Below the pieces are notes generated by a model that saw nothing but the letters and a program-made list of their open reading frames with translations, did no database searches and had not been told where the DNA came from. Positions 1,136 to 22,090 of a stretch of 64,000 nucleotides of DNA are shown here, piece by piece. Made by a program: the position numbers and the translations under genes. Source of the stretch: Craspedostauros australis (Eukaryota > Bacillariophyta > Bacillariophyceae > Mastogloiales > Achnanthaceae); assembly GCA_026770025.1 (NCBI GenBank), contig JAMXDE010000023.1, positions 868,001-932,000 on the forward strand, read 5' to 3'. Numbering within the stretch: the stretch's first letter is position 1; the number at the start of each line of letters is the position of its first letter.

Positions 1136-4100
1136 TCAGATGCCGCCATCGTCATCATCCCCATCATCACCACCGCCATTCCTCTTGGGCTGCTGCTGTC
1201 CCACGACGGAATCCTGCTGGTAGTACATTTCCAGCACCTGATCGCTGCTTGTGGCCTGTTCCGGATCCTTGTCGTCGCGCACGCGTTCGAACCTTGGGAA
1301 TCGCAGGCCGATGCCGCGTCCTGGATCCGTCTTGCCCACTGCGCCCTTGTGCAATGATGATTTGGACAGGTCGGCGGCCTTGATCTCCCACACTTGGCAC
1401 GCGTCGAACCAGACATCGCACGCCAAACCGTCAGCGACGTTGTACTGCGACGACTTTGTGTCAATCTTGCGCTGACTCAAGGCTTCCGACAGCGTCTTCA
1501 GATCTTCATCGGAGAATCCGGTTCCGATCTTGCAAACGGACTGGAATTCCTCGGACTCGACGTCGTAGCAGGCGAGGAGGTAGGCGCCGTAAACGCCCGT
1601 GCGCTTGCCTCGTCCGAAGTACGCTCCCAATGGCACAAGATCGAACGAATCGCCCAATCCGTCCAGATAGTCCTTCTTCAGCTTCAGCCAATTCAGCGAT
1701 CGCCGAGATGGTTCGTAGACGTCGTCCAACGTCTTCACCATCAGACCTTCGCACTGTCCCTTCACTGCCTGGTCCAAAAAGTCTTGCAGTTGCGTCGTAT
1801 CCAGCGCATCGTCGGCCTCTACTGTTGATGCTGCTGGTGTTGGTGTTGTGCCATCCGTGGTGGCGTCGTCATCGACATCGTCGTCTGCATTCTCCACCTT
1901 CGGTTCATCCTGCTTCGAGCCAAAGTCCATGCTCGTCGCGAATTGGAATTTGTGCATCACGGGGGCGAAATGCAGCTGCATCAAACGACGGCGTTCGTGC
2001 AGCGGGTGGCCGAGCAACGATTCGCCATTGAGGAACATCAGATCGAACGCCTGCACGATGATCTTCACCTTGGCCGTTGTCGCGGATTCCTCGGAGCGCT
2101 TGCGCGTCGAAAGGACCTGGAATGGCACCAGCTGCTGCGTTTCGGCATTGTACGCCACCACTTCGGCATCCAGCACGAATGAAGTTGTTGTAACAGATTC
2201 AGCCCCCACGTCGCTCTTGACTTCCTGCCTCTGCTTCTGTGCTGCATCCGCTGCCTCTTGCACCAGCAGCGGCACTTCTGGGTACTTGCCAGTCGTTTCC
2301 AGCAGGTTGCGCGAGAACACCTTGGTCTTGCCATCCAGCAGATGGATCTGCGCTCGTTCGCCGTCGTACTTGTACTCGCACGTGAATGGGCACCCCTCCA
2401 GGCGTTTCAGCACCTCCTGGATGGACCTGGTGGGCTTGGCAAGCATGGGCACGACTGGGATGCCTGGCTGGAAGGAGCAGGCCTGCGGCAAGTACCGCAA
2501 TGGCGTGCTCAAGGCAGCATCCAGCAGAGCATCGTAGCTGGGAACCTGGCTGTACACCTGCTTAACGATAGCAACAGCCGCCTCCAACCGCTTCTCGATC
2601 GGTTGCGATACGTCATCGTACTGCTGGATGATGGCGGATGGCTTGGAAGCGGAAGACGAAGCGGAGTCTTCGCTGTTTTTATTGCTGTTGGTCTTCGTTT
2701 TCTCCTTGAATATGTCAGCCACCTTTTCGTCACCATCGTCGTCCTCTTCCATGTCACTACTGCTGTCCCCATACAGCTGCTCTGCTTTTGCGACATTCAC
2801 CGTGTTGGGAACAGTGAAGGACATGGTGTGCGCAAGCGAAATGAGCACAGTGGATGCCGCCAAACCGATTCTCAACTTTCCCTGCAATCCACGGATGATG
2901 TACTTGGTCTCGGAACCCTTGGTGCACATGACGAGAAGCTTCTTGATGGCGTCAACCTTGAGCTTCTGGGAGGACGATCCTGTGATCTTGGCGATGGCAC
3001 GGAAGACGGAGAGGACGTGATTGCAAGTCAACGGCTTTGGTTTGAAACCGAAGGACAGGGTGGACTGCTTGGATTTGTAGCCCATGGCGACGGTTCCCAA
3101 ATCTCCATCGAGCTCGTACTTTTGCTTGACCTGTGATGGTTTGCTGCCGTAGGCCTCCGCGATGGCCTTGATGAGGATGGAATCACCGATGCCCAATTCG
3201 ACGCATTCGTAGGCTGGCGCCACCGTGTTGCTGGCAAGGTAGAGGATGGTGTACAGATCGTGCTTGGCCTGTTCGGCTTGCTTTTGCTTCGACATCTTCT
3301 TTTTGATGGTGCCATTTCCCTTTGCGCTTGTTGTGTCCTTGTTGCCAATGTTGTTAGACAGCACGACGCGTCTCATGAGATCCGTGAGCAGGGCCTGGAT
3401 GTCCAGCCGACCCGTGATGGCCTCGATCTTATCCAGCGTTTGCACGAGAGTGGAATAACGTAGCGGTGACGCTGTGTTGGCCTGATTCTGTTCGATATCC
3501 TCCAGGATGGCCTTGTTGGATGGAACCTTGGCTTCTCTGGCCCACTTCCTGGCCTGCTTCAACAGGCGCTCCTGCAATTTCTCCTCCTTCGTTTTTGGCT
3601 TTGCGTTATCATCGCCCATCTTTTCGTCCTTGTCGCTATCGCTGTCATTGGTGTTGCCGTCGCGAGTAGTTCCTCCTTGTGCTTCTGCTTCTGCTTCATC
3701 GACATCCACGTCCATGGCCTTGCCCTTGGCATCATCGTCTTCTTTTTTCACCTTGGTCTTCGCCGTTGCTTTTGCCGCTACCTTGGATTTGGTGTTGGAG
3801 TCTGCCGTTTCTTCTTTATCATCACGGTTGGCACGACGATGGCGTTTGTGAGTGTTGGTCCTTGTCTTTTTGTTTTTCGACTTGGCGATTGCATTTTCAC
3901 CATCGCTGCCATCATCGCAGTACTCGTCATCAATCTTGTCGTCATCATCGTCGTTGCTGTTGCCATCGTCCTTGTAATCAGCGTCATCATCATCATCACC
4001 GTCGTCGTCGTTGTTGTTGTTGTTGTTGTCATCATCATCATCATCATCGTCATCCATGATGGCCAACTTACGTCTCTTGATGGCAAAGGATGTCAACTTG

Positions 4101-8921: not shown

Positions 8922-10788
8922 AGATATTCGATTAGATCGAGTGGATTGCAGGTGGAATAGAGTAGTAGTGCTCGTGATATGACGAAGATACAAAGCAGAG
9001 TCGGAAAATGCACTGGAAGCGGCTGAAGTGCAGATACGATTCTATTCAACCCTATCTTCCTCGATATAGTAGGGATATTCATGCTTGGGCATTGCGAACC
9101 GCGCAAACCAAGGGTCTACAACCACAACACCAGTCGTGGCAAGAGTCTTTGTCGGAAAGAATGCGTGCAAAGGGAGTTCCGTTTGCCGAGAATTACATGC
9201 GGGTACAACAGACAAGTTTGCAGGAAGTGTGATCATCGAAGACAGTGCCTGCTCGGCACGAACACGTGCAGTGGTCTTGGCAACAGTGACAGTTCAACCA
9301 ATGACATCATCATCAGAGAGCAGAAGTCTGCACGGCAGACACCACCTGCGAGAATTGCGCCCAAGGATCACTGTGTGATTTAGACACAGAAACTTTCGTA
9401 ATCGACGACGCAACCGCGGATTGCCGTGGGCCATTCCAAACTGCCTGTGAAGTCGTCTAATCATCACATACACAACCACACATACTAGCATGCCTAGCTT
9501 GTACTCTGGCACCATGTTTCTATTTTGTTGTTGTCAAAGCAGAGCACTCTGTGACGATGATGCACACTCGCTTCGCTTGTGTCTTCTACACTGTCTCAGT
9601 GGCTAATCGAATCGAGGATACTGTCTTGGCGCCAAATGTCTCTTTGTTCTTGTTGTTCCTGTTGATGCTGCTGTTGCTGTCGATGTCGTTTTGTGCGGAA
9701 TTGCGCACAGTGATCATCACCAATCATCACCACCACCAACACACAATCTGGAGTCAAGTTGGGAACGGTACTTGGCAAGTATGGGGACATCGATGAAGAT
9801 CACAACGACAACAATAGCGACGGCGGTCCTGGCAATGGCGATATCAATGGCATCAAACACTCTACACTCACATTACGTACAAGTACGAAGAATGTGAGAG
9901 ACTGTGCTGTCCTTCATGATCCGTTCCATCGAACGACATCATCACGATGGTCACAAAAGAAGACAGGCGAGATCCATTGTCATATGTAAGGCTGCTGGCA
10001 TTCATGAGAACAAGGTCATTGGGTCATGCTGATGGTGATGGCGGTGATGATGATGGTGGCGCTTTGGAAAATGAATCATTCCCTGCAGTCCTCTGCGTTT
10101 CGCACCATTGATGGCCAGGCAGAGTCAATGATGGCAGATCCGTCTCATCCCAGATGATCAAATCCCAACACCCATGCACAGCCGTCGATGCACAACTTGC
10201 ATCATCACTTCGCGCAGTTGCCCCAGTGGATCCAGTCGTACTCGTGATGGCATGACGAGATGCATCCCCAGTCCCCAGATGACGCCAGCAACAGCAACCC
10301 TGGTGCACCACCCTTGCTGATTCGTCAGTTGCTGGAAGCAGTGGCCAACAACACAAGTATTATATGATCTCTAGTATAATATTATGCTATTCTATATTTA
10401 ATTATATTGTTACACTTGATGATGCGGCCACCCTCCTCGGCGACTCGTCATGTGTCTGTTCTCTAGAATATTCTAGTTTTGTGCAAAATTAGGGTACTTT
10501 AGTCCATCTGGTCGAAACGTTGCTCAGCGAAAGTTCGATCGCGATCCATCATGTTCGTTTTCGCGATGTCTGGGCGAACGTGTTGACACAGAGAGGTTCC
10601 GATGAGCAGCGCTGCTGCGCATTCCCACACATGCGCAACACGCTCACAACATTCACAACAGGGATTTCTGCAACAGGGACTTCCACAACAGCGAGGCTCA
10701 CAAGTCAATACTCTATAATACCTCGAATAATATAATATTGTTGTTCTGGAATAGACCAGACCATTATCAAGCAGAGAGACAGAGAGAG
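8922..10788. other. Intergenic region, AT-rich islands, no supported gene
   Basis: About 1.9 kb between two genes on the + strand. Short open frames show no recognisable domain or convincing codon bias. It contains AT-rich islands at about 10356-10410 and 10709-10740 built from TATAATATTAT-type strings; the second lies some 50-80 bases before the DDI1 start. Nothing else could be supported. Confidence 0.5.
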
Positions 10789-12201
10789 ATGAGCTCCCAG
10801 ATCCAGATCTCGTTGCTGGATGGACGGTCCGGCAGCTCGGACTCCATGGCTGTGTCCACGGACATGAAGGTCTTCGACCTCATCCAGCTGGCAGTTGCGC
10901 TGTTTGGTTTGGATGGCAACGGCGAGCTGCTGCTCATCAAGGATGCCAAGCCGCTCAATCCCGCTTCGACGCTGCAGCAGGCCGGGGTGGGCGACGGCGA
11001 TCTGCTGGCCGTGGCGGACAGACAATCCATCAGCAACAACAACAGCAGCAACAACAACCCGGCACCAGCGCCTGCCCCAGCTGCTGCAGGCGGTGGCTTG
11101 GACTTTTCCAACCTGCTCGGGGGTTCCGGCGCACCAGCTTCTGCTGCGAGCGGCGGTCTCAACTTCTCCAGCATCCTTGGCAACGCCAGTGGCAACGCAG
11201 CCGGCGCCAAAGACGATGGCAGCGACCGCATCCCGGTGTACTACGCGGGCATGACGCTTGACGATGCCATGTCCAACAACCCGCATCCCAACCAGATCGT
11301 TCAGCTGCTCAAGGGTCCCCATCCGCACCTGTTCAAGGAGCTCAATCATCACAATCCCACCTTGGCGCAGAGAATCCAATCGGCGACCTTCGACCAGGCC
11401 GTGCAGATCTGGAGAGAGTACACTGTCAAGACCGGCATCCAGAACGCCATGCGGCAGACCAAGCTCTTCCAGACGCAGCAGAGCATGACCAAACGGCTGC
11501 AGCAGAATCCCGACGACGCAGAAGCCAAGGACTACTTCCACAAGCAAGAGAAGCAGAAGGAGATCCAGCAGCAGTACTTCCAGGCCATGCAGGAATACCC
11601 CGAGAGCATGGGCAAGGTCCTCATGCTCTACATCGAGACGACCATCAACGGCCATTCCGTGCAGACCTTCGTGGACAGCGGCGCGCAGGTATCCGTCATG
11701 AGCAAATCCTGCGCGCGGCGGTGCGGCTTGCTGGATCTGGTCGACACGCGCTTCGCAGGCTTCGCTCTGGGCGTCGGCAAGGGCAAGATCTTGGGACGCG
11801 TGCACATTGCGCATCTCAAGATCCACAACGTCCATTTCCCGTGCACCATCACCGTGATGGACAGCGAAGGCCTGCCCTCGGCCGGTGCGACGCAGAAGGA
11901 CATGGACTTCCTGCTGGGCTTGGACATGCTGAAGCGGCATCTGTGCACCATCGATCTGGCATCGGGCGTGCTGCGATTTCCGACGCAGAACATGGAAACG
12001 CCCTTCCTTCATGAGAAGGATCTGGATGAGAGCAAGGGCGGGACGAAGGGTTTCAACGCCGAGGAGGCCAACATGGAGCTGGAGAAGCAAATGCAGGAAG
12101 CGGAAAAGAAAGCCGCCGACGACGATGGTGATGGTGACGGCAAGCCTGACGGTGGCGACAAGAAGGGTGATGGCAGTGGCGATGACATGCAAACATCATG
12201 A
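10789..12201 (+). CDS. DDI1: DDI1-type ubiquitin-like/retropepsin-like aspartic protease
   Basis: Predicted 470-residue protein, start at the ATG 10789 (MSSQIQISLLDG). DDI1 proteins are proteasome shuttles and proteases that cut heavily ubiquitinated clients such as NRF1-type factors. Residues 1-75 form a ubiquitin-like domain; residues about 155-255 hold the helical DDI region; the retropepsin domain follows with the catalytic FVDSGAQVSVMS (Asp296), then DTRFAGFALGVG and KILGRVHIA, and FLLGLDMLKRHLC, all diagnostic of DDI1. The protease works as a dimer in known members. No C-terminal UBA domain is visible; instead the protein ends in an Asp/Gly/Lys-rich tail. Single exon; an AT-rich island precedes it. 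Confidence 0.93.
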   Translation: MSSQIQISLLDGRSGSSDSMAVSTDMKVFDLIQLAVALFGLDGNGELLLIKDAKPLNPASTLQQAGVGDGDLLAVADRQSISNNNSSNNNPAPAPAPAAAGGGLDFSNLLGGSGAPASAASGGLNFSSILGNASGNAAGAKDDGSDRIPVYYAGMTLDDAMSNNPHPNQIVQLLKGPHPHLFKELNHHNPTLAQRIQSATFDQAVQIWREYTVKTGIQNAMRQTKLFQTQQSMTKRLQQNPDDAEAKDYFHKQEKQKEIQQQYFQAMQEYPESMGKVLMLYIETTINGHSVQTFVDSGAQVSVMSKSCARRCGLLDLVDTRFAGFALGVGKGKILGRVHIAHLKIHNVHFPCTITVMDSEGLPSAGATQKDMDFLLGLDMLKRHLCTIDLASGVLRFPTQNMETPFLHEKDLDESKGGTKGFNAEEANMELEKQMQEAEKKAADDDGDGDGKPDGGDKKGDGSGDDMQTS

Positions 12202-12535
12202 ATCCTCTCGTCGTAGAGCTCTGACGCTCTCTGACACGCCGGCCAGGGTTTGCGTATCTCTCCATGCTTTCCATACCATGCGGGGTGCACACATCACAAA
12301 TGCGTAAACGGATACACTCTATGTACGTCCGGAAGCGTACTTGAATCGTCCTCTCCTCGTCCTCGTACTTCATGTCTACCATGGCATGGTAGATAAACTC
12401 AAAAGCCGTCATCAGGTCTATACTCCCTCTTCTAGACTCGCGGTGTGATTGTTCATTTTGTCTTCTCCAGATTTGGCGCCAATCGTGAAACAACACAGAA
12501 CCTCGTCGTTGTCGCACAAACAAAGACCATTGACC
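12202..12535. other. Intergenic region with a 19-bp palindrome
   Basis: Lies between the DDI1 stop and the GT77 start, both on the + strand. At 12375-12393 there is a perfect 9-bp inverted repeat around one central base (arms TCTACCATG / CATGGTAGA). It could be a protein-binding site or chance. No gene is seen. Confidence 0.4.
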
Positions 12536-13819
12536 ATGGCGAAACACCGCCGCTGCGTGCTTGGGCTGCGAGGACGGGCTCTGATCCTGCTCTCCATCCT
12601 CTCCGCGTATCTCAGCATCCAATTCTCTGCAAAGACGGTGCCATCTCTCACTGATCCGCGAAATAGCAATGTTGCTGCTGCTGGTGAAGATGTGAGCAAT
12701 GTTGGTGGTGGAGTCTTCGAGGCGAGTGCCCGTACCACAGCTTCGCTGGTAGGAAGCGCTCAGTCATGGCAAACGCAGCAGCAGCAGCAGGATGATGTAG
12801 CGATGGAAACAACTGCCGTCAGTGACTCACAACGAGCAGCATCCGCAACTTCGAATCCAGTCGCAGTCGCCACCAACGTAGAACCTGCCGATGCCGCATC
12901 TCTGCGAAGGAGAACCCCACGCAAGCGGCCATCAACGAGAGAGCTGCCTCGCAGCTGGCCAGAGCCGCAGGTTCTTCGCGATGTCGCCATCGATGGCACC
13001 GTCGTCGTCTTCATCACGACGTGTCCGTACATCCACTTCCTGGAGAACGCCATCGCATCGATGCAGAACATTGGTTACACCAACTACGTCATCGTCCCTT
13101 TGGATCGGCTCACCTTGAGCCGCGTCACGCAGCTGTGGCCCAACCACGTGGTCTCCGTGCCCGACGCTGCGCACAACGACGCGCCATTCCAAAGGCCGGC
13201 GAAGTTCAACACCAAAGAATTCCGACTCATCACGTCATCGCGTGCCATCGTCCTCAAGGCGTTTCTGTCCAGCACGGCCAACCTCAACATTCTCTACTGC
13301 GATGTCGACACGTACTGGCAATCCGATCGCACCATCCCGCGCTTCCAACGCATTCAGCAGCAGCATCCTGCAAGCGAGATGATCGCCATCGTCGATGCCA
13401 AGACCGTTCGGGATGGTTTGATTTGCAGCGGAATTCTCTACCTGCCAAAATTAACAACATCCTCATCACCTCGAATCCTCGACTTCCTTTCCATCTGGGA
13501 TGCCTGGATCCTGACCAATCAATTCCTCAGCGATCAAGCGGCATTGTACAAGGCGTACGCCCAGATCGTGAAGGCGCAGCAACAGGAAGGCAACAGCTCC
13601 TCGTTCATTCATGTCCTCGCCAAAAATAACCCGCACTTCCCCACTGGCAAGGTGTACTTTGAAGTCATGACGCAGGAGCAGCGCAGCGATGTGTGCATCG
13701 TGCACAACAACTGGATCCGAGGTGCTGCCGCCAAACGCACGCGGTTCAGAGAGCATGGCATGTGGATTCTGCCGGGACGCGTGTACAAATTGCCGAATCG
13801 GGCAGAGTGCGGGATATGA
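12536..13819 (+). CDS. GT77-family nucleotide-diphospho-sugar transferase, type II membrane protein
   Basis: Predicted 427 residues; ATG 12536 sits in a strong context (GACCATGG). A short basic tail (MAKHRRCVLGLRGR) is followed by a hydrophobic anchor at residues 15-33, the arrangement of Golgi type II glycosyltransferases. A Ser/Thr/Ala-rich stem runs to about residue 135. The catalytic domain shows VVVFITTCPYIHFLENAI, FRLITSSRAIVLKAFL, the DxD metal/nucleotide motif in NILYCDVDTYW (Asp256/Asp258) and the C-terminal VCIVHNNWIRGAAAKRTRF block that marks the PF03407 family, whose plant and algal members add sugars to glycoproteins or cell-wall glycans. Donor and acceptor are unknown. Single exon. 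Confidence 0.85.
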   Translation: MAKHRRCVLGLRGRALILLSILSAYLSIQFSAKTVPSLTDPRNSNVAAAGEDVSNVGGGVFEASARTTASLVGSAQSWQTQQQQQDDVAMETTAVSDSQRAASATSNPVAVATNVEPADAASLRRRTPRKRPSTRELPRSWPEPQVLRDVAIDGTVVVFITTCPYIHFLENAIASMQNIGYTNYVIVPLDRLTLSRVTQLWPNHVVSVPDAAHNDAPFQRPAKFNTKEFRLITSSRAIVLKAFLSSTANLNILYCDVDTYWQSDRTIPRFQRIQQQHPASEMIAIVDAKTVRDGLICSGILYLPKLTTSSSPRILDFLSIWDAWILTNQFLSDQAALYKAYAQIVKAQQQEGNSSSFIHVLAKNNPHFPTGKVYFEVMTQEQRSDVCIVHNNWIRGAAAKRTRFREHGMWILPGRVYKLPNRAECGI

Positions 13820-14138: not shown

Positions 14139-17100
14139 TTACAGCTCATCGCTACCCTCAGCAGCAGGTGCATCATCAGCGTCTTCCTCATCTTCCACAT
14201 CGTCGGCAAAGTCCGTCACGTAGTTAATGACGCGACCAACTCCGCGAGGGAAGTCGTCACGAAGCTCCTTGGCCCAACCATCCTTGAGCAATGACAGTAT
14301 CATCTCCAGTAGCTTGTCGGCAGTCGCCTTCTCCTGATCCAAGGAGAAGTTGCTCACGGTGATGTGGCTTCGTCCGTCCCACACCGCTACGATGTTGCCA
14401 CCCTCGTACTCCGCGACGGCCATGGAACCGTCACCCATGAAGGTGTACCACTTCGATGAAAGGACCTCGCGATCCAGATCTTCGACGACATCTAGAACGA
14501 CATTCATCAGGTCGGGAACCCTGCCCGCCTTCTTTTCGTTGCGCCACAGCTGATACACGGTCTGGCGTCCGATCGGGATTTGCATCTGGAATTGCTCCTG
14601 GCCCGGCATACTGTCGTAGTCGGTGTCAGCGAACTCCCTCGGCTTGTACTCGTCCTTGTCCTGGTAGTAGAACGCGCCGCTGCTGACTTCCTCCATCCAA
14701 AACTCAATATCTGAGAACTTGGCGTTCAGCTCCTCGGCGGATTTGGACATCTGCGCCGGAGACGCTTCATTGTCGACGGTCAGGATGGAGAACTCGGCGG
14801 TCACGGTGTCTTCGCCCTTGGCAAGGAACTCGAAGCGGGTCAACGGATCGACCTCGATGAACCGACGGGTGCGTTCGATGGCGTTGTGACGCCACCTTGC
14901 GTTGTCACGGTTGGACAAGACGGCCATCATGAGCTTGACGGATTCCTTCTGGAAGGATGTGCGTCGGTTGGCCCAGAAACTGGCGAAGATTTGGCCCATA
15001 ACGTACGAAGCATTGTCATCGAGGATCGCTGCAGTCACAGTCAAACCGGATTCCATGAGATCTTCTCGCAGGTCATCCACAAGCTTGGTGCGGCATTCGT
15101 GTCGGTCCTTTTCATCAGCATCTTCCTCAGCAAGATCAGGACATTCGTACAGCTTCGTCACCTTCTCGAAGTGTCCGGTCTCCTCGGTCAATTTCGCCGA
15201 CTTGCAGTCCTCCGATGCGAGTCCGCAGAAGATCAAGGCGACGCCACCCTTGGACAGCAGATTGCTGAAGGTGACTGCGTACAGCTCCTGCCACAGTTCG
15301 CTTGTCATGACCTCGGACAGCTTCGGCTGTACCGCGTTCTTTCCCTCGTCATTTGTGGCGTTGCAGTTGCGGCTGTGCCAGGCGAGATCAGGACCAATCA
15401 GCATGTGATCGCGATCCCACGAGTGGCTGCCGTACATTCCAGACACGATGATGCGGTACGATGATACGGTCCCCTTCTTGATGTCGTTGCCAGCACCGAG
15501 GGCCTTGACGATGAGACTGCGCGTGGAGTCCATGAGATCGAAGCGTCCCCACAGATGGATGTCCAGAGCAACGTAGTTGGCCTCTGGCCAGCGCCTGATG
15601 ACGACGTACCCTTCGGCCAGAAGGATGATGGTCTTGGACTTTGCATCGTTGCTGCCGTGAGAGGCGTGCACACTGAAGCCTTGGTCATCCAAGACGCGCA
15701 TGATCAGCGACGTGGCTTGGTCCAACGGCACAGCGACATTCTCAATGTCCACGATCATCAGCATGCCCTCGCTCTTTCCGTCGCGGATGCCTTGGGTTCT
15801 GATTTGATCTTCGATGGCGGCGTCCAGACGCGTGCACCCGCCATCCTTGACAGGGTCATTTGCCCTGAAGTCGTGCACCAGGTAGTGCGAGTTGGGGTAG
15901 TCCTTGAGGTCCGGGAGGAGGATGGTTTCCACGCCGTGATCGGTCAACGGCTGCGTGAACAAGTTGCGCTCGTTGCTACCAATGATCATGGCCTGGCCGC
16001 AGATCATGGGGCAGTCGTGGAAGTGAAACTCCATGCTGTAGTCCATGACGTTGGACATCCTGGGGAAGTAGCGTTCGTTCTTGACGAGGATGCCATCAGG
16101 TTTCACCAGCAGGGACATGGCCTCGAAGATATCGAGGTGGTCGCTGACGGTGAGGCTGGTGGCGGTCTCGGACAGGTCGATGATGACGAGGTCGAACGAC
16201 GAGGTGTACTCGCGTGGTAGGAGGAGGAGAGACTTTCTGGCGTCGCCGAACCACCATTCGACGCGGTCGTCGTCGAAGTGCGGTTGGGTGTGGAACCACT
16301 TGAAGGAGGTTCGGACGACCTGCTGATCGAGCTCCAACCCGACCACGAGCTCGACGTCGGGATACTTCAAGACTTCGTGCAGGATCATCGAGTCCCCGCC
16401 GCCGATGAAGGCAACGCGCTTGACTTGGTCGAGGAACCGAGCCGGGTAGTGAACGCCGTACTCGTGATAGTGCGGTCTGTAGTTGTCGCAGATCTGGACC
16501 GTGTCATCCAGATCGAGGCAGAGGCAGCCATCCGGGATGTCGCCGCGCACGCGTCTCGAGTAGTTGATTGTCTGGTATTCTGATTGGATGGATTCGACTT
16601 CATCAAACTCCTTGAAGCCCATCATCTTGGAGATGTCGCAGGAGTTGTACCTGTAGAGGACGTCCGCGAGCTTGCCATCCAGCGACATGTACAGATCTCT
16701 GGATGTGCACTCGTCGTCCACGACGTTCGTGCAGGACAGCGGGTCGTGGTCTGGCATGGAAACCCTCGCGTTTGAGAGCGCGATGATGGCAGAGTCGACG
16801 AACTTGCTGACGATGTCCCATTCGATTTCCGGGACGAGCTGGGCTGGTCCCTCTCGCTTTTGCCGACCGCCGGTCTTGGCGTACGTCTCGCGTCCCAACC
16901 GAAGGAGGTTGGACCGCAAGACAGTGAGTCGTCGCAGCTGCTTCAAGATGTAGGGCTGGTTCATTTTGTCGGACTGCCAGGTGAGTTTGTACTTGAGCGC
17001 GCCACCGTTGACGTCCGTGGATTCTTGAGTCTCGTTGGCGTCCATGCCAAAGTCCTCCATCTCTTCGGGAGTCAGCGGAGGAACGACGTCGATCCGAAAC

Positions 17101-18266
17101 TTCATCTTTGGATCTGAGAAATACCAAATCTGCGGGTAATCCTCGACGAATCCGTAGTCACGCAGGATTTCTGTGCCACGCATAGCAGATGACGTGGGGC
17201 GGTGTGAACCGTGTGTTGGTGGGGAATGGGCACGCAGATGTGTGGAGAGCATATTATGTGAGCAAAAGAGCGGGGGCATGATCGAACGCACGCATTTGTG
17301 GGCATGTCTGAACTGAACGCGCATACTCGCACGCAGACAGGGTTGGTTGCAGCACGATCACAACGAAGAGTCGCAGTCGCAATCAACTTCATGTTCGTGT
17401 CCATGCTCACCTGCAACACCGTAAATGTCCTGACGTCCTCCACAAGTCTCGCACATATTGAGCGTCATGTAGAGCTGCTCGCCAGCCTTGATGTCTCGCG
17501 TTGCGTGCACGGAATAGGCCCTGCCATCCGCTGAGGTGTCGATGTTGGTGTAGTCCCCATTGCGGTGGTTGTAGATATCCGCGAAGGGCACCAGCAGGTG
17601 GTTGTCACCTCGCGACACCAGGATGGCCGCTGCCAACCGACCGATGTCCGTGTCCTCGCCCTTGCAGTCCTTAAGGTAGTCTTCGTCGATCCATTCGATG
17701 GGCTCCATGGGTGGCAGCCCATCAAAGACGCCGGCTTCGCCGGACAGGACCTCCATGAGCAGGTCCTTGCCCTGGGGAGACCAGATGCTGGGAATCGCCA
17801 GCTCCTGCGGGCTGAATTCCTCCAGCGCCGCGAGGAAGTCGAGGTAGGGCTTGTGCGGCGAGTTGTCGGGATCCTTGAAGGCCTCCACCAGCTTCTCCAC
17901 GCTCTCGCAAGGCAGGACCGTGTCCGGCGCAGGCCCCTCGGTGGGTCCATCCAGTTCTTCGAAGTAGGCGAGGATGTTCGGCACCGGGACGCTGGCCAGC
18001 ATCTCGCCCTTGGGGATGTCCTTGGTGGCGAAGACGCCCAGCTTGGACTGCTTCAGCGGCTCCTGGATGATCTGCACGTTCTGCAGCTCGATGTTGACGA
18101 AGCCTCGCTTGGTGTTGCTGATCCAGTGGATCAGGCCGTCCACGGCGGTCATCATGGCATCCGCGGCGGCGTCGCTGGCCTGCGCCGATGCGACCGCCCC
18201 GTTGCCGGCCAGCAGGGCCTGCAGCAGCAGCAGGGACACCATTCCCATGGTCCGCAAGCCGCCCAT
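14139..18266 (-). CDS. SET methyltransferase - aminopropyltransferase-like - SpeD-like fusion, predicted ER-luminal
   Basis: Two exons (18266-17411 and 17170-14139) join in frame to 1295 residues. The join restores the SET/post-SET sequence RQDIYGVAEILRDYGFVEDY, continuous across both exons, so the fusion is not two genes. Start ATG 18266 gives a signal peptide (MGGLRTMG then SLLLLQALLAGNGAVA). The SET domain resembles Rubisco-LSMT/SETD3 types: KLGVFATKDIPKGE, NH at about residues 232-233, EQLYMTLN. A spermidine-synthase-like Rossmann domain follows: YRPHYHEYGVHY, AFIGGGDS near residue 540, LVIIDLSETA where active enzymes have DSSDP. A SpeD-like domain (about 770-860) contains RRWPEANYVALDIHLWG but lacks the catalytic Ser, His and Cys. 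The remaining 400 residues are unassigned. The protein ends in GSDEL, an ER-retention-type tetrapeptide. The substrate is unknown; catalysis by the last two modules is doubtful. Confidence 0.85.
17171..17410 (-). other. Intron of the SET fusion gene
   Basis: 240 bp with donor GTGAGC and acceptor CACAG. Exon 1 ends GCA-G and exon 2 begins AA-ATC, giving a GAA codon and an uninterrupted conserved motif. Read-through would stop after HEHEVDCDCDSSL. Confidence 0.88.
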
Positions 18267-19591: not shown

Positions 19592-22090
19592 TCAGCCCTG
19601 ATCCTGACCATGGTATGTAGCCCAGTGTTGCTTGCAGATGTAGACATCACAGATGTTGCACATCCTTCTCACTCTTTTCGGTTTCACCCCTGCCTTTCCG
19701 TCTTTCTTTGCTTTCGCCTTCAAGAACGCACAGTATGTGCAGGTCCGCTGGCACCCTTCTCTCACGATGAGCTCCTTGTGGTCGCGATACTCTCCTGTCA
19801 GTCTCTTCAAACTCAGCCTTGGTGACTTTCTGCTCATTCTCGATGCTGTTCGGATCGATCTTGGCACTGGCCTTGATGGTGTGGTTGCCCGTGCCCTTGC
19901 CCTTGTTAACCTCGATTCATACATGACACCTTTCGCAACAAGCCGTTCAATCATCTGCAAACCAAATGCCTTGTGCTCCAATTGATGCTCCTTTTTGACC
20001 AGCATGTTGTGGGCGATCCAGGCATTCACCCTCAGGATGTCCAGCAGGTGAAACATCAGGGGCATCCACACTCGTCGGCATCGGAGATTCGGTCTGTAGT
20101 AGGCGATGAACTGATCGCACTTGTCCACGCCTCCCATCCAGTGATTGTAGTCGTCAATCATCTTCGGTATGTGAATCCTCGCGTTCCAATTGCTCCCCCA
20201 CACTTGTTTGAGGTGAGACTTGTTCGTCTGGGTCTCCCTTGGCTTGTGGCGATCCTTCTGCACTGTCTCATTTCCGTAGTGGATGGTGCTGACCATCAAG
20301 ACAACATTGTTGTCGACCCATCTTGTGATGACATGATCATCAGATTGTGTCCACAGATACAGCGAATTGAAGCGTCCATCCTCAATATCTTTCATCTCCT
20401 TCGGAGGGAAGCCACGACGATTCCGAGCAGTGCCAACGATTCCCAGCCCCATTCTCCTGGAGTTCTCAATCACAGTCTTTGTTGTGAAAAGATTATCCAT
20501 TGCCACGACGTGCCCCAAATTTGGATCAAGAACAGCCATCAACTCTTGCACTGTGTTGTTGATCTTCGTTGTCTTATCCAGTCTTCCAGCAGGAAGGATA
20601 TGGTACATGAACCCAGATGCAGAGCAGCACAGCGCGAAGAACTTGTATCCTTCTTTGATGGGCTTTTGCTTCATGCAATGGGTTTGGCTTGATTGGCCTT
20701 TGAAGCGTACCATCATCTCGTCAATGGAGCAGGCAAACCCTGGCTTTGTGCACACCTTCTGAGAGACCCGGTTGGTATGGTCCAGCAGAAGTTGGACCTT
20801 GGCATACCATGAGCGATCGGAAATGATCACAGGAGGCATCGAAGGTGGTGGTGGTGCAGGTTTGCAGGCTGCTCTGCTCTCGGACCCATGTAGGGCAACA
20901 TTGTCAGAGAGGTCGGATAGCGTTGATGAAGATGTTGACGCATCAGCTGACGTTCCAGAAGTTGTGGCTGTCTGCGATGATGATCTGGTGCCGCGGCTCT
21001 GATCTGTTGGAGAGACATCATCATCCATATCGTCTGCAGATGTATCGCTGCTGTCAATTGAAGAATCTGACTGGCCATCCGAGTGTTCAGCCATTGCAGT
21101 GAGATGGATGTGATTCCAAATGACTTGGTATCGTGCTCTTGTCATGTATGTCATGAGCTCGTGAGAAGGAATGGAAATGGAAGCAGCTCTCCAGTAGTCC
21201 TTCTTTGCAGGGGCGCCGAAGAAGCCCATGTAGAAGTACATTGCAAGGAATATGTACAGTTCACATACTGTCACCAGTTCAGCCTTGGATCGACTGTTTC
21301 GAATATGATTGTTGGTGTGAAGCTGGATGCTCTCCACAAGAGTCTCAGGGAAGAAGATTTCCAAGATGCTCTCAATTGTGGTGGCAATATTTGGTAGTCC
21401 ACGGAACTTGGGCTTGTGATTGCCCACAGGGAGTGGTGTGTAGTTGCTTCAATGGTTGCTGTTGATGTTGATGGTGTACTGACTGCCATCAACTGTTGCA
21501 CGGGTGCCAATGCTTTCCTGGTTCCCAATGCTTCCTTCAGATGGGTCAGCTGTGATTGCAAAGTCAGTTGTGATGGTTCCATTCGATGGGCTGGCATCAG
21601 TTTTGATGCATGCAGTGTTGCTCTGATTGGATGCCGTGTCCATCTGTGTGGCCATACGCGTTGACATGCGTGTGGCCAAGTGCCCAGCAATGCCAGATGG
21701 ATTGCTGACGATGCTCGTTCCATCCACTGCAGGTAGTGTGACGATGCCGGCATCAATTTTGCGATCCACTGCAGGTGGAATGATGATGCTGGCATCGATT
21801 TTGCCATCCACCGCAGGTGGAACGATGATGCTGCTCTTGTCATTGGTGTGCATGGTGGTTGATGAATGATTGGTTGTTGGCGGGTTGTCGTCGAGGCCCC
21901 TGAGGGTGGTTGAATCCAGAGGCAGCCATTTGCATGGAGGAGACCAATTCAACTTTGGAGAATCGTTGAGGAAAACCACATGCGGACGAGAGCTGGTGTA
22001 GGGGAGATCAGGCTCTGCGAAGAAGGACGGCTGGCTGCTGGTTGGTGTGGAAGGTGGCTCCTTGCGCTTGGCACGGGCGAACTTGACCAT
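19592..22090 (-). pseudogene. piggyBac transposase interrupted by one in-frame TGA
   Basis: One frame runs from ATG 22090 to the stop at 19592, broken by a single TGA at 21449-21451 (after INSNH). Without it the product would be about 831 residues. The N-terminal part (to residue 213) is low-complexity with three copies of a 14-residue repeat. The transposase core is downstream: SIDEMMVRFKG, VVAMDNLFTTKTV and MGGVDKCDQF supply the three catalytic aspartates of the superfamily, and YYRPNLRCRRVWMPL follows. The C-terminus has the Cys-rich finger typical of piggyBac (CTYCAF, CNICDVYICKQH). There are no frameshifts, so the break is recent, or the core is translated from an internal start; no in-frame ATG lies just after the TGA. 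Confidence 0.88.
21723..21834. repeat. 42-bp tandem repeat, about 2.7 copies
   Basis: Units 21723-21764, 21765-21806 and a partial third copy at 21807-21834, each starting TCCACYGCAGGT. In the transposase frame they encode 14-residue repeats around PPAVDGKID in the N-terminal region. Confidence 0.75.

Follow-up and report, generated by a model that had tools for sequence, protein, structure and literature searches.

How should a protein be understood in which a methyltransferase-type SET domain, an aminopropyltransferase (APT) and a domain akin to S-adenosylmethionine (SAM) decarboxylase (AdoMetDC, here of the bacterial SpeD type) follow one another in a single chain? The question is raised by a gene of the diatom Craspedostauros australis, located in positions 868,001 to 932,000 of contig JAMXDE010000023.1 (assembly GCA_026770025.1), and this whole stretch of 64,000 nucleotides is called the window below. 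Our results revealed a family of such genes in the same genome, in which the AdoMetDC-derived domain has lost its presumed catalytic residues in every member modelled and the most enzyme-like part, to judge from the sequence, is the APT. We propose, at a probability of roughly 0.53, that the product of the window gene may be an APT of the endoplasmic reticulum (ER) lumen for long-chain polyamines or silaffin lysines, which takes part in silica formation and carries a structural pseudo-decarboxylase together with a doubtful methyltransferase.

One fusion gene and its paralogs

An earlier note on this DNA had claimed that two frames are joined by a 240-bp GT-AG intron, and that a SET, a spermidine-synthase-like and a SpeD-like part stand in this order in one protein. 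Both claims are borne out. Joining of the exons 18266–17411 and 17170–14139 gives, with exact coordinates, a single stop-free frame of 1295 residues that reads DIYGVAEILRDYGF at the junction, the introns of the paralogs agree, and a profile search of the spliced protein against Pfam returns SET, Spermine_synth and then AdoMet_dc, the last being weak and below its cut-off. The intron sits 3' of the Pfam SET match and 5' of the motif that closes the SET region. It was also rightly held that the motif restored by splicing belongs to the SET end, as a like end continues in-frame in six standalone SET open reading frames (ORFs) of the genome.

A search of the genome with the whole protein yielded at least 39 matches, scoring being confined to the best candidates. 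Twelve further genes could be modelled with the same order of parts, so that the family has at least 13 members including the window copy. The best in-frame splice in all 12 models is a phase-1 GT–AG intron before an (E)-x-x-R-D-x-G-F-like stretch, where the choice among splice pairs followed their resemblance to the window protein near the junction and left the phase free. As this phase-1 intron lies at the homologous place in 12/12 paralogs, the fusion appears to be no misjoin, and we take the two exons to be one gene encoding one fusion protein, with a splice deduced from the sequence and the paralogs. All residue counts over 13 members given below refer to the window copy and our 12 gene models, including L043 with its two parts set together.

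As for conservation, the APT core is the best conserved part and seems to be under strong constraint. The mean identity between the window copy and 11 paralogs is 62% in the APT, 44% in the pseudo-AdoMetDC domain, 37% in the C-terminus, 29% in the linker and 24% in the middle region. Over seven gene pairs, the ratio of nonsynonymous to synonymous substitution (dN/dS), which covers exon 2 only and for which many dS values are above 1 and close to saturation, is 0.16–0.26 in the APT, 0.36–0.62 in the linker and 0.13–0.65 in the middle and C-terminal regions. In the pseudo-AdoMetDC domain six of the pairs fall at 0.17–0.44, and the window–L048 pair reaches 0.66; this catalytically dead domain nonetheless seems to be kept by selection in most pairs. 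The APT sequences of L041, L042 and L045 are near-identical, which suggests recent duplication or gene conversion, and because of this near-identity and the near-saturated dS the dN/dS figures are rough.

Within the family, five of the 13 genes lie within about 120 kb on contig C56 (114-234 kb). One of the loci, L043 (C56:174000-180700), has its APT part interrupted by about 970 bp. Another, L047 (C10:1027000-1034500), has apparently tandem SET domains before its APT and pseudo-SpeD parts (SET1 at 979-1722, SET2 at 2463-3252, last exon from about 3617), and a candidate thirteenth exon pair, L047b, was rejected as it seems to be the 5' portion of the L047 gene instead.

A decarboxylase-derived domain without its active site

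In a scan of the whole protein, Pfam AdoMet_dc matches residues 799–846 with an E-value of 5.8e-5 and 23.8 bits, under the cut-off of 25 bits, and the score rises to 27.1 bits, above the cut-off, when the 548 residues of the C-terminal half up to residue 1272 are scanned alone. Of the 12 members scanned for this family, PF02675, 10 match it with E-values up to 0.1. Moreover, a profile of the family matches four AdoMetDC chains in PDB over about three quarters of the length (E 0.0016 to 0.0081), and a second such search gave the same four chains (E 0.0011 to 0.0046), with no other match up to E 10. An HHalign comparison of the family against intact SpeD sequences from the same genome gave an E-value of 1.9e-4, with a probability of only 47%. 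On these modest scores, the domain is most probably derived from AdoMetDC.

The active site is a different matter. In the alignment, ISESHLTIHTWPE...FTCG of Thermotoga maritima AdoMetDC stands against LLAEGYVVIRRWPE...HLWG of the window protein. We take Ser63, His68 and Cys83 (T. maritima numbering) to be the catalytic residues, with which the Ala at the Ser position of the 1tmi chain is consistent. The pyruvoyl Ser is replaced by Gly in 12 members and by Ala in one, the His by Arg in 12 and by Thr in one, and the Cys by Trp in all 13. Since all three are lost throughout the family, the domain, as read from its sequence, cannot work as a pyruvoyl decarboxylase. Thus the SpeD-like domain of the earlier note stands as a statement of descent by the profiles, and falls as a working decarboxylase, as 0/13 members keep the Ser, the His or the Cys.

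Aminopropyltransferase core and supply of decarboxylated SAM

In PDB the APT domain matches spermidine synthases with E-values down to 4.3e-12, and in NCBIfam it matches PRK00811 at E 8.9e-25, though the 87.5 bits are far under the cut-off of 260. Q511, Y520-H521-E522, GGGD at 542–545, E565, D567, D595 and D617 are invariant in 13/13 members, so that of the motifs typical of such enzymes Q..Y.E, GGGD, E.D and GDA are present throughout the family.

Such an APT would need decarboxylated SAM, and a search of the genome for the SpeD family returned six matches, of which two are weak and represent the window's own family and four are strong, with E-values of 5.1e-22 or better. At each of the four strong loci, L056 to L059 (one on C24, one on C1 and two on C10), an APT match follows downstream on the strand of SpeD. 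At L056 and L058 SpeD and APT share one open frame, and a single stop lies within the APT match beside L058; at L057 and L059 they are in different frames and are perhaps fused across introns. All four loci retain LLESH..HTWP..LFTCG, which none of the 13 fusion members does, and L057 to L059 have an N-terminal hydrophobic stretch, judged by eye as a candidate membrane anchor. A eukaryotic-type AdoMetDC is also present, as three exon matches that lie together, one of which contains a TGA. Since both the four intact SpeD loci and this eukaryotic type exist, the decarboxylated SAM can probably be made by other proteins of the genome, and we predict that the SET–APT–pseudoSpeD proteins depend on such a source.

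The SpeD–APT fusions (PF02675 with PF01564), which occur in bacteria and at the four loci here, likewise pair an AdoMetDC-type domain with an APT. They differ in that SpeD is N-terminal at the four loci and keeps ESH, HTWP and FTCG, and in that the whole-protein genome search gave no SET match there.

Relation to known diatom fusions

The earlier note regarded the domains as normally separate proteins and the fusion as possibly specific to stramenopile algae, to which diatoms indeed belong. Michael 2011 (FEBS Lett 585:2627) is reportedly the source credited for diatom AdoMetDC/APT fusions, some of them with a histone-methyltransferase domain. In the passages of the reviews used here, to which our statements on the cited literature are confined, diatom AdoMetDC–APT fusions are described, also with a histone N-methyltransferase domain, with reference to that work (PMC3820600; PMC12029483). 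The SET–APT–AdoMetDC fusion is, by these passages, an already known kind in diatoms, and the window gene is not without precedent. Diatom SAMDC–APT proteins are believed there to be able to use SAM directly (PMC6356823), diatom APT fusions, 32 of which are counted in Nitzschia inconspicua, are named as an area needing study (PMC12803844, 2025), and the synthesis of long-chain polyamines in diatoms is called still unclear (PMC6356823; PMC12803844).

The reviewed fusions have the same three domain types as the window gene, but in the window family the AdoMetDC part is dead in 13/13 members and lies C-terminal to the APT. The state of this domain, dead in the window family and intact at the other SpeD loci beside APTs in the same genome, separates two classes that are lumped together in the review passages. 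No statement on a loss of AdoMetDC residues in diatom fusions was found in those passages, the primary paper of 2011 being outside their scope; and in papers on the silicon response of Thalassiosira pseudonana, the terms methyltransferase, spermi- and aminopropyl are absent.

A precedent for the dead domain is found in animals, whose spermine synthase has lost the AdoMetDC function in a domain still required for the dimer (PMC12803844). Human spermine synthase (SMS) likewise has its APT fused to this non-catalytic AdoMetDC-derived domain needed for the dimer, and differs from the window protein in that the domain is N-terminal. Moreover, SMS is not known to have a SET domain or to enter the secretory pathway.

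Proposed role in silica formation

A point not considered in the earlier note is that the N-terminus and the C-terminal SDEL point to the secretory pathway and to silica biology. The protein start MGGLRTMGMVSLLLLQALLAGNGAVASA resembles a signal peptide, with a cleavage site placed by eye, and a 13-residue stretch with a mean hydropathy of at least 1.9 is found near the start in 12 of the 13 models; the exception is L047, whose model begins within the apparent upstream part of the same gene. Silaffins are methylated and polyamine-bearing, cingulins are polyamine-bearing, and the precursors of both carry ER signal peptides (PMC5501833). An APT of the ER lumen with a SET domain would fit the making of such amines.

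On this basis the fusion protein would enter the ER lumen and be retained there, where its APT would take aminopropyl groups from decarboxylated SAM and add them to polyamine chains or to the lysine side chains of silaffin-type silica-forming proteins. The decarboxylated SAM would come from elsewhere, i.e. from the four intact loci with SpeD beside APT or from the separate eukaryotic AdoMetDC. The pseudo-AdoMetDC domain may serve as a scaffold or dimerisation unit, much as the AdoMetDC-derived domain does in human spermine synthase, and we favour a structural role for it because of the animal precedent. The SET domains of the sister copies would N-methylate the same amines, whereas that of the window copy perhaps only binds the substrate or is weakened. 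If so, the SET–APT–pseudoSpeD family would be a concrete and expanded candidate for long-chain polyamine synthesis, and it might also attach polyamine chains to the lysines of silaffins.

Several points weigh against this proposal, and the first of them concern the SET domain. Position 269, which we presume to be the catalytic Tyr of SET, as fits the edge of the alignment with SETD3, is Leu in the window copy, Gln in L049 and Phe in L051, compared with Tyr in the remaining 10 members of the 13 as well as in 6/6 standalone SET ORFs examined. The GxG motif reads K75-L-G77, its first Gly position, which is Gly in 8/13 members, being Lys here. As the Tyr is replaced by Leu, methyltransferase activity of the window copy is doubtful, and so is the protein lysine methylation that had been inferred for this gene; the SET domains of most sister copies look better preserved. 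Furthermore, both SAM and decarboxylated SAM would need entry to the lumen. ER-retrieval-like ends are seen in only 2/13 members, SDEL in the window copy and KQEL in L048, with nothing similar in the other 11, and SDEL is not the most frequent form of ER signal. Finally, the APT loop, the first Asp of which is kept in 13/13 members and presumably is the catalytic Asp, reads D-x-S-E-T in all 13, as against D-S-S-D-P in the genome's ordinary spermidine synthase, and because of this the activity or substrate of the APT could conceivably differ from that of the ordinary enzyme.

In other respects the SET domain of the window copy is recognisable. The NH motif is present as N233-H234 (N in 11/13 and H in 13/13 members), and there is a weak match to SETD3 (E 0.22), with the NH motif and a YG..GF-type end in common. 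Its likeness to Rubisco LSMT is our assumption, and from the Rubisco LSMT/SETD3 type it departs in having Leu for the catalytic Tyr. At least six standalone SET ORFs occur in the genome (L052, L034, L053, L036 and two in L054), whose SET ends are similar to those of the fusion family, and the four of them with starts in view (L052, L053, L036 and one in L054) have a hydrophobic N-terminal stretch. In a SET tree with a midpoint root and many weak forks, the 13 fusion SETs fall apart from the six standalone ones, where the position of L047 is unusable as its row is 52 residues from the wrong place. Diatom-specific SET proteins linked to cell-wall formation are said to have been described by Nemoto 2020, and the standalone ORFs of this genome are a like case. 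Four more SET-like matches were seen in the genome, two on C11 and two on C42.

Alternative explanations

The proposal may be carried further, though tentatively and with the odds clearly against it, to an assembly line in the lumen. A membrane-anchored intact SpeD–APT would make the decarboxylated SAM, and the SET–APT–pseudoSpeD set, held together or controlled by the dead domain, would build chains on silaffin lysines. The copies would differ in SET methylation, and the mix of copies would set a species-specific amine pattern.

Among the true rivals, the one that survives best, unlikely as we consider it, is that the dead domain is a regulatory pseudoenzyme, which would bind SAM or a partner AdoMetDC and tune it, or would sense SAM for the SET domain or the APT, as in the sensing idea of the earlier note. 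Purifying selection acts on the domain in most pairs, and the prozyme of trypanosomes is a precedent for a regulatory pseudoenzyme (PMC6221367). However, the animal spermine synthase, with a structural role, is the closer precedent. The prozyme moreover is of the eukaryotic AdoMetDC type and not of the bacterial type as here, which counts against this explanation.

It is still less probable that the window gene is a degenerating copy, whose SET is losing activity and which is decaying towards a pseudogene. The Leu at the SET Tyr position and the Lys for Gly in GxG would agree with such decay, but 1295 codons are open, the splice sites and the APT residues are intact, and the dN/dS of the window copy against its two compared paralogs is 0.22-0.66 across five exon-2 regions, with several dS near saturation.

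A conventional bifunctional machine, in which AdoMetDC produces decarboxylated SAM for immediate use by the APT and the SET domain methylates the product, is the reading that the reviews give in general to diatom AdoMetDC–APT fusions (PMC3820600, PMC6356823, PMC12029483). For this family we hold it to be improbable, given the loss of the pyruvoyl Ser, the His and the Cys in 13/13 members and the Leu of the window SET. Least of all do we expect two separate genes with the second starting inside the presumed intron, since, even though the exon 2 frame continues upstream without a stop across most of the intron, with an in-frame ATG (SAMRGTEILRDYGF) shortly before the acceptor, the phase-1 junction recurs in 12/12 paralog models and the SET end lies in exon 2, in-frame as in the six standalone SET ORFs.

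Other features and neighbouring genes

The coordinates of all features are collected in Table 1. Pfam gave no family for the C-terminal 395 residues, and the sole PDB match of the C-terminal 333 residues is a designed protein at E 0.27. A second SpeD repeat at the C-terminus was considered and rejected as a firm assignment, for residues 1155-1272 match SpeD in HHalign at E 0.0043 with a probability of 8%, and the PDB profile search matched the first SpeD-like stretch only; this region is possibly a second, very divergent SpeD-like repeat. Relatives outside the genome were sought by pattern among GTDB genome contigs and viral contigs, with 14 and 29 matching stretches and none confirmed.

Table 1. 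Features of the SET–APT–pseudoSpeD gene in window coordinates
Feature	Position	Strand	Remarks
Whole fusion coding region	14139..18266	minus	two exons, 1295 aa
Exon 1: signal-peptide-like N-terminus and Pfam SET match	17411..18266	minus	
Signal-peptide-like segment, aa 1-28	18183..18266	minus	hydrophobic MGMVSLLLLQALL, AVASA before possible cleavage site; Kyte-Doolittle 2.15 over 13 residues
SET domain, Pfam match aa 76-267	17466..18041	minus	PF00856, E 1.1e-6, 29.5 bits (cut-off 22.4)
Leu at presumed SET catalytic Tyr, aa 269	17460..17462	minus	comparison with family and standalone SETs
Intron, 240 bp, GT-AG, phase 1	17171..17410	minus	homologous place in 12/12 paralog models
Exon 2, TAA stop included: SET-end motif (EILRDYGF), linker, APT, pseudo-AdoMetDC, C-terminal region	14139..17170	minus	
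APT (spermidine/spermine synthase), Pfam match aa 519-650	16077..16472	minus	PF01564, E 3.2e-17, 63.1 bits (cut-off 22.9)
AdoMetDC (SpeD)-derived pseudo-domain, about aa 735-846	15489..15824	minus	PF02675; profile and HHalign matches
Dead active site, aa 806-826: Gly806, Arg811, Trp826	15549..15611	minus	alignment with T. maritima AdoMetDC
Middle region, aa 895-1135	14622..15344	minus	no matches to known families found
C-terminal conserved region, aa 1155-1272 (..LRDDFPRG..)	14211..14564	minus	weak HHalign match to SpeD
C-terminal SDEL, ER-retrieval-like	14142..14153	minus	sequence

Around the fusion gene, a nucleotide-diphospho-sugar transferase gene (PF03407) at 12449-13819 on the plus strand adjoins it in convergent orientation. 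An aspartyl protease (PF09668) with a ubiquitin-like N-terminal part, which we take to recall DDI1, is encoded at 10606-12201 on the same strand. Upstream of the fusion gene, at 19592-21448 on the minus strand, lies a DDE_Tnp_1_7 transposase (PF13843), presumably of the piggyBac type.

In the genome as a whole, the silicon-transporter family PF03842 has 88 matches, which is in keeping with a diatom host and more than is known for model diatoms. Thirty-two of these are near full length (covering about 480 or more of the 513 model positions), 28 of them without internal stop. Silicon transporters have been reported outside diatoms too, in some other silicifying or calcifying algae (PMC4742977).

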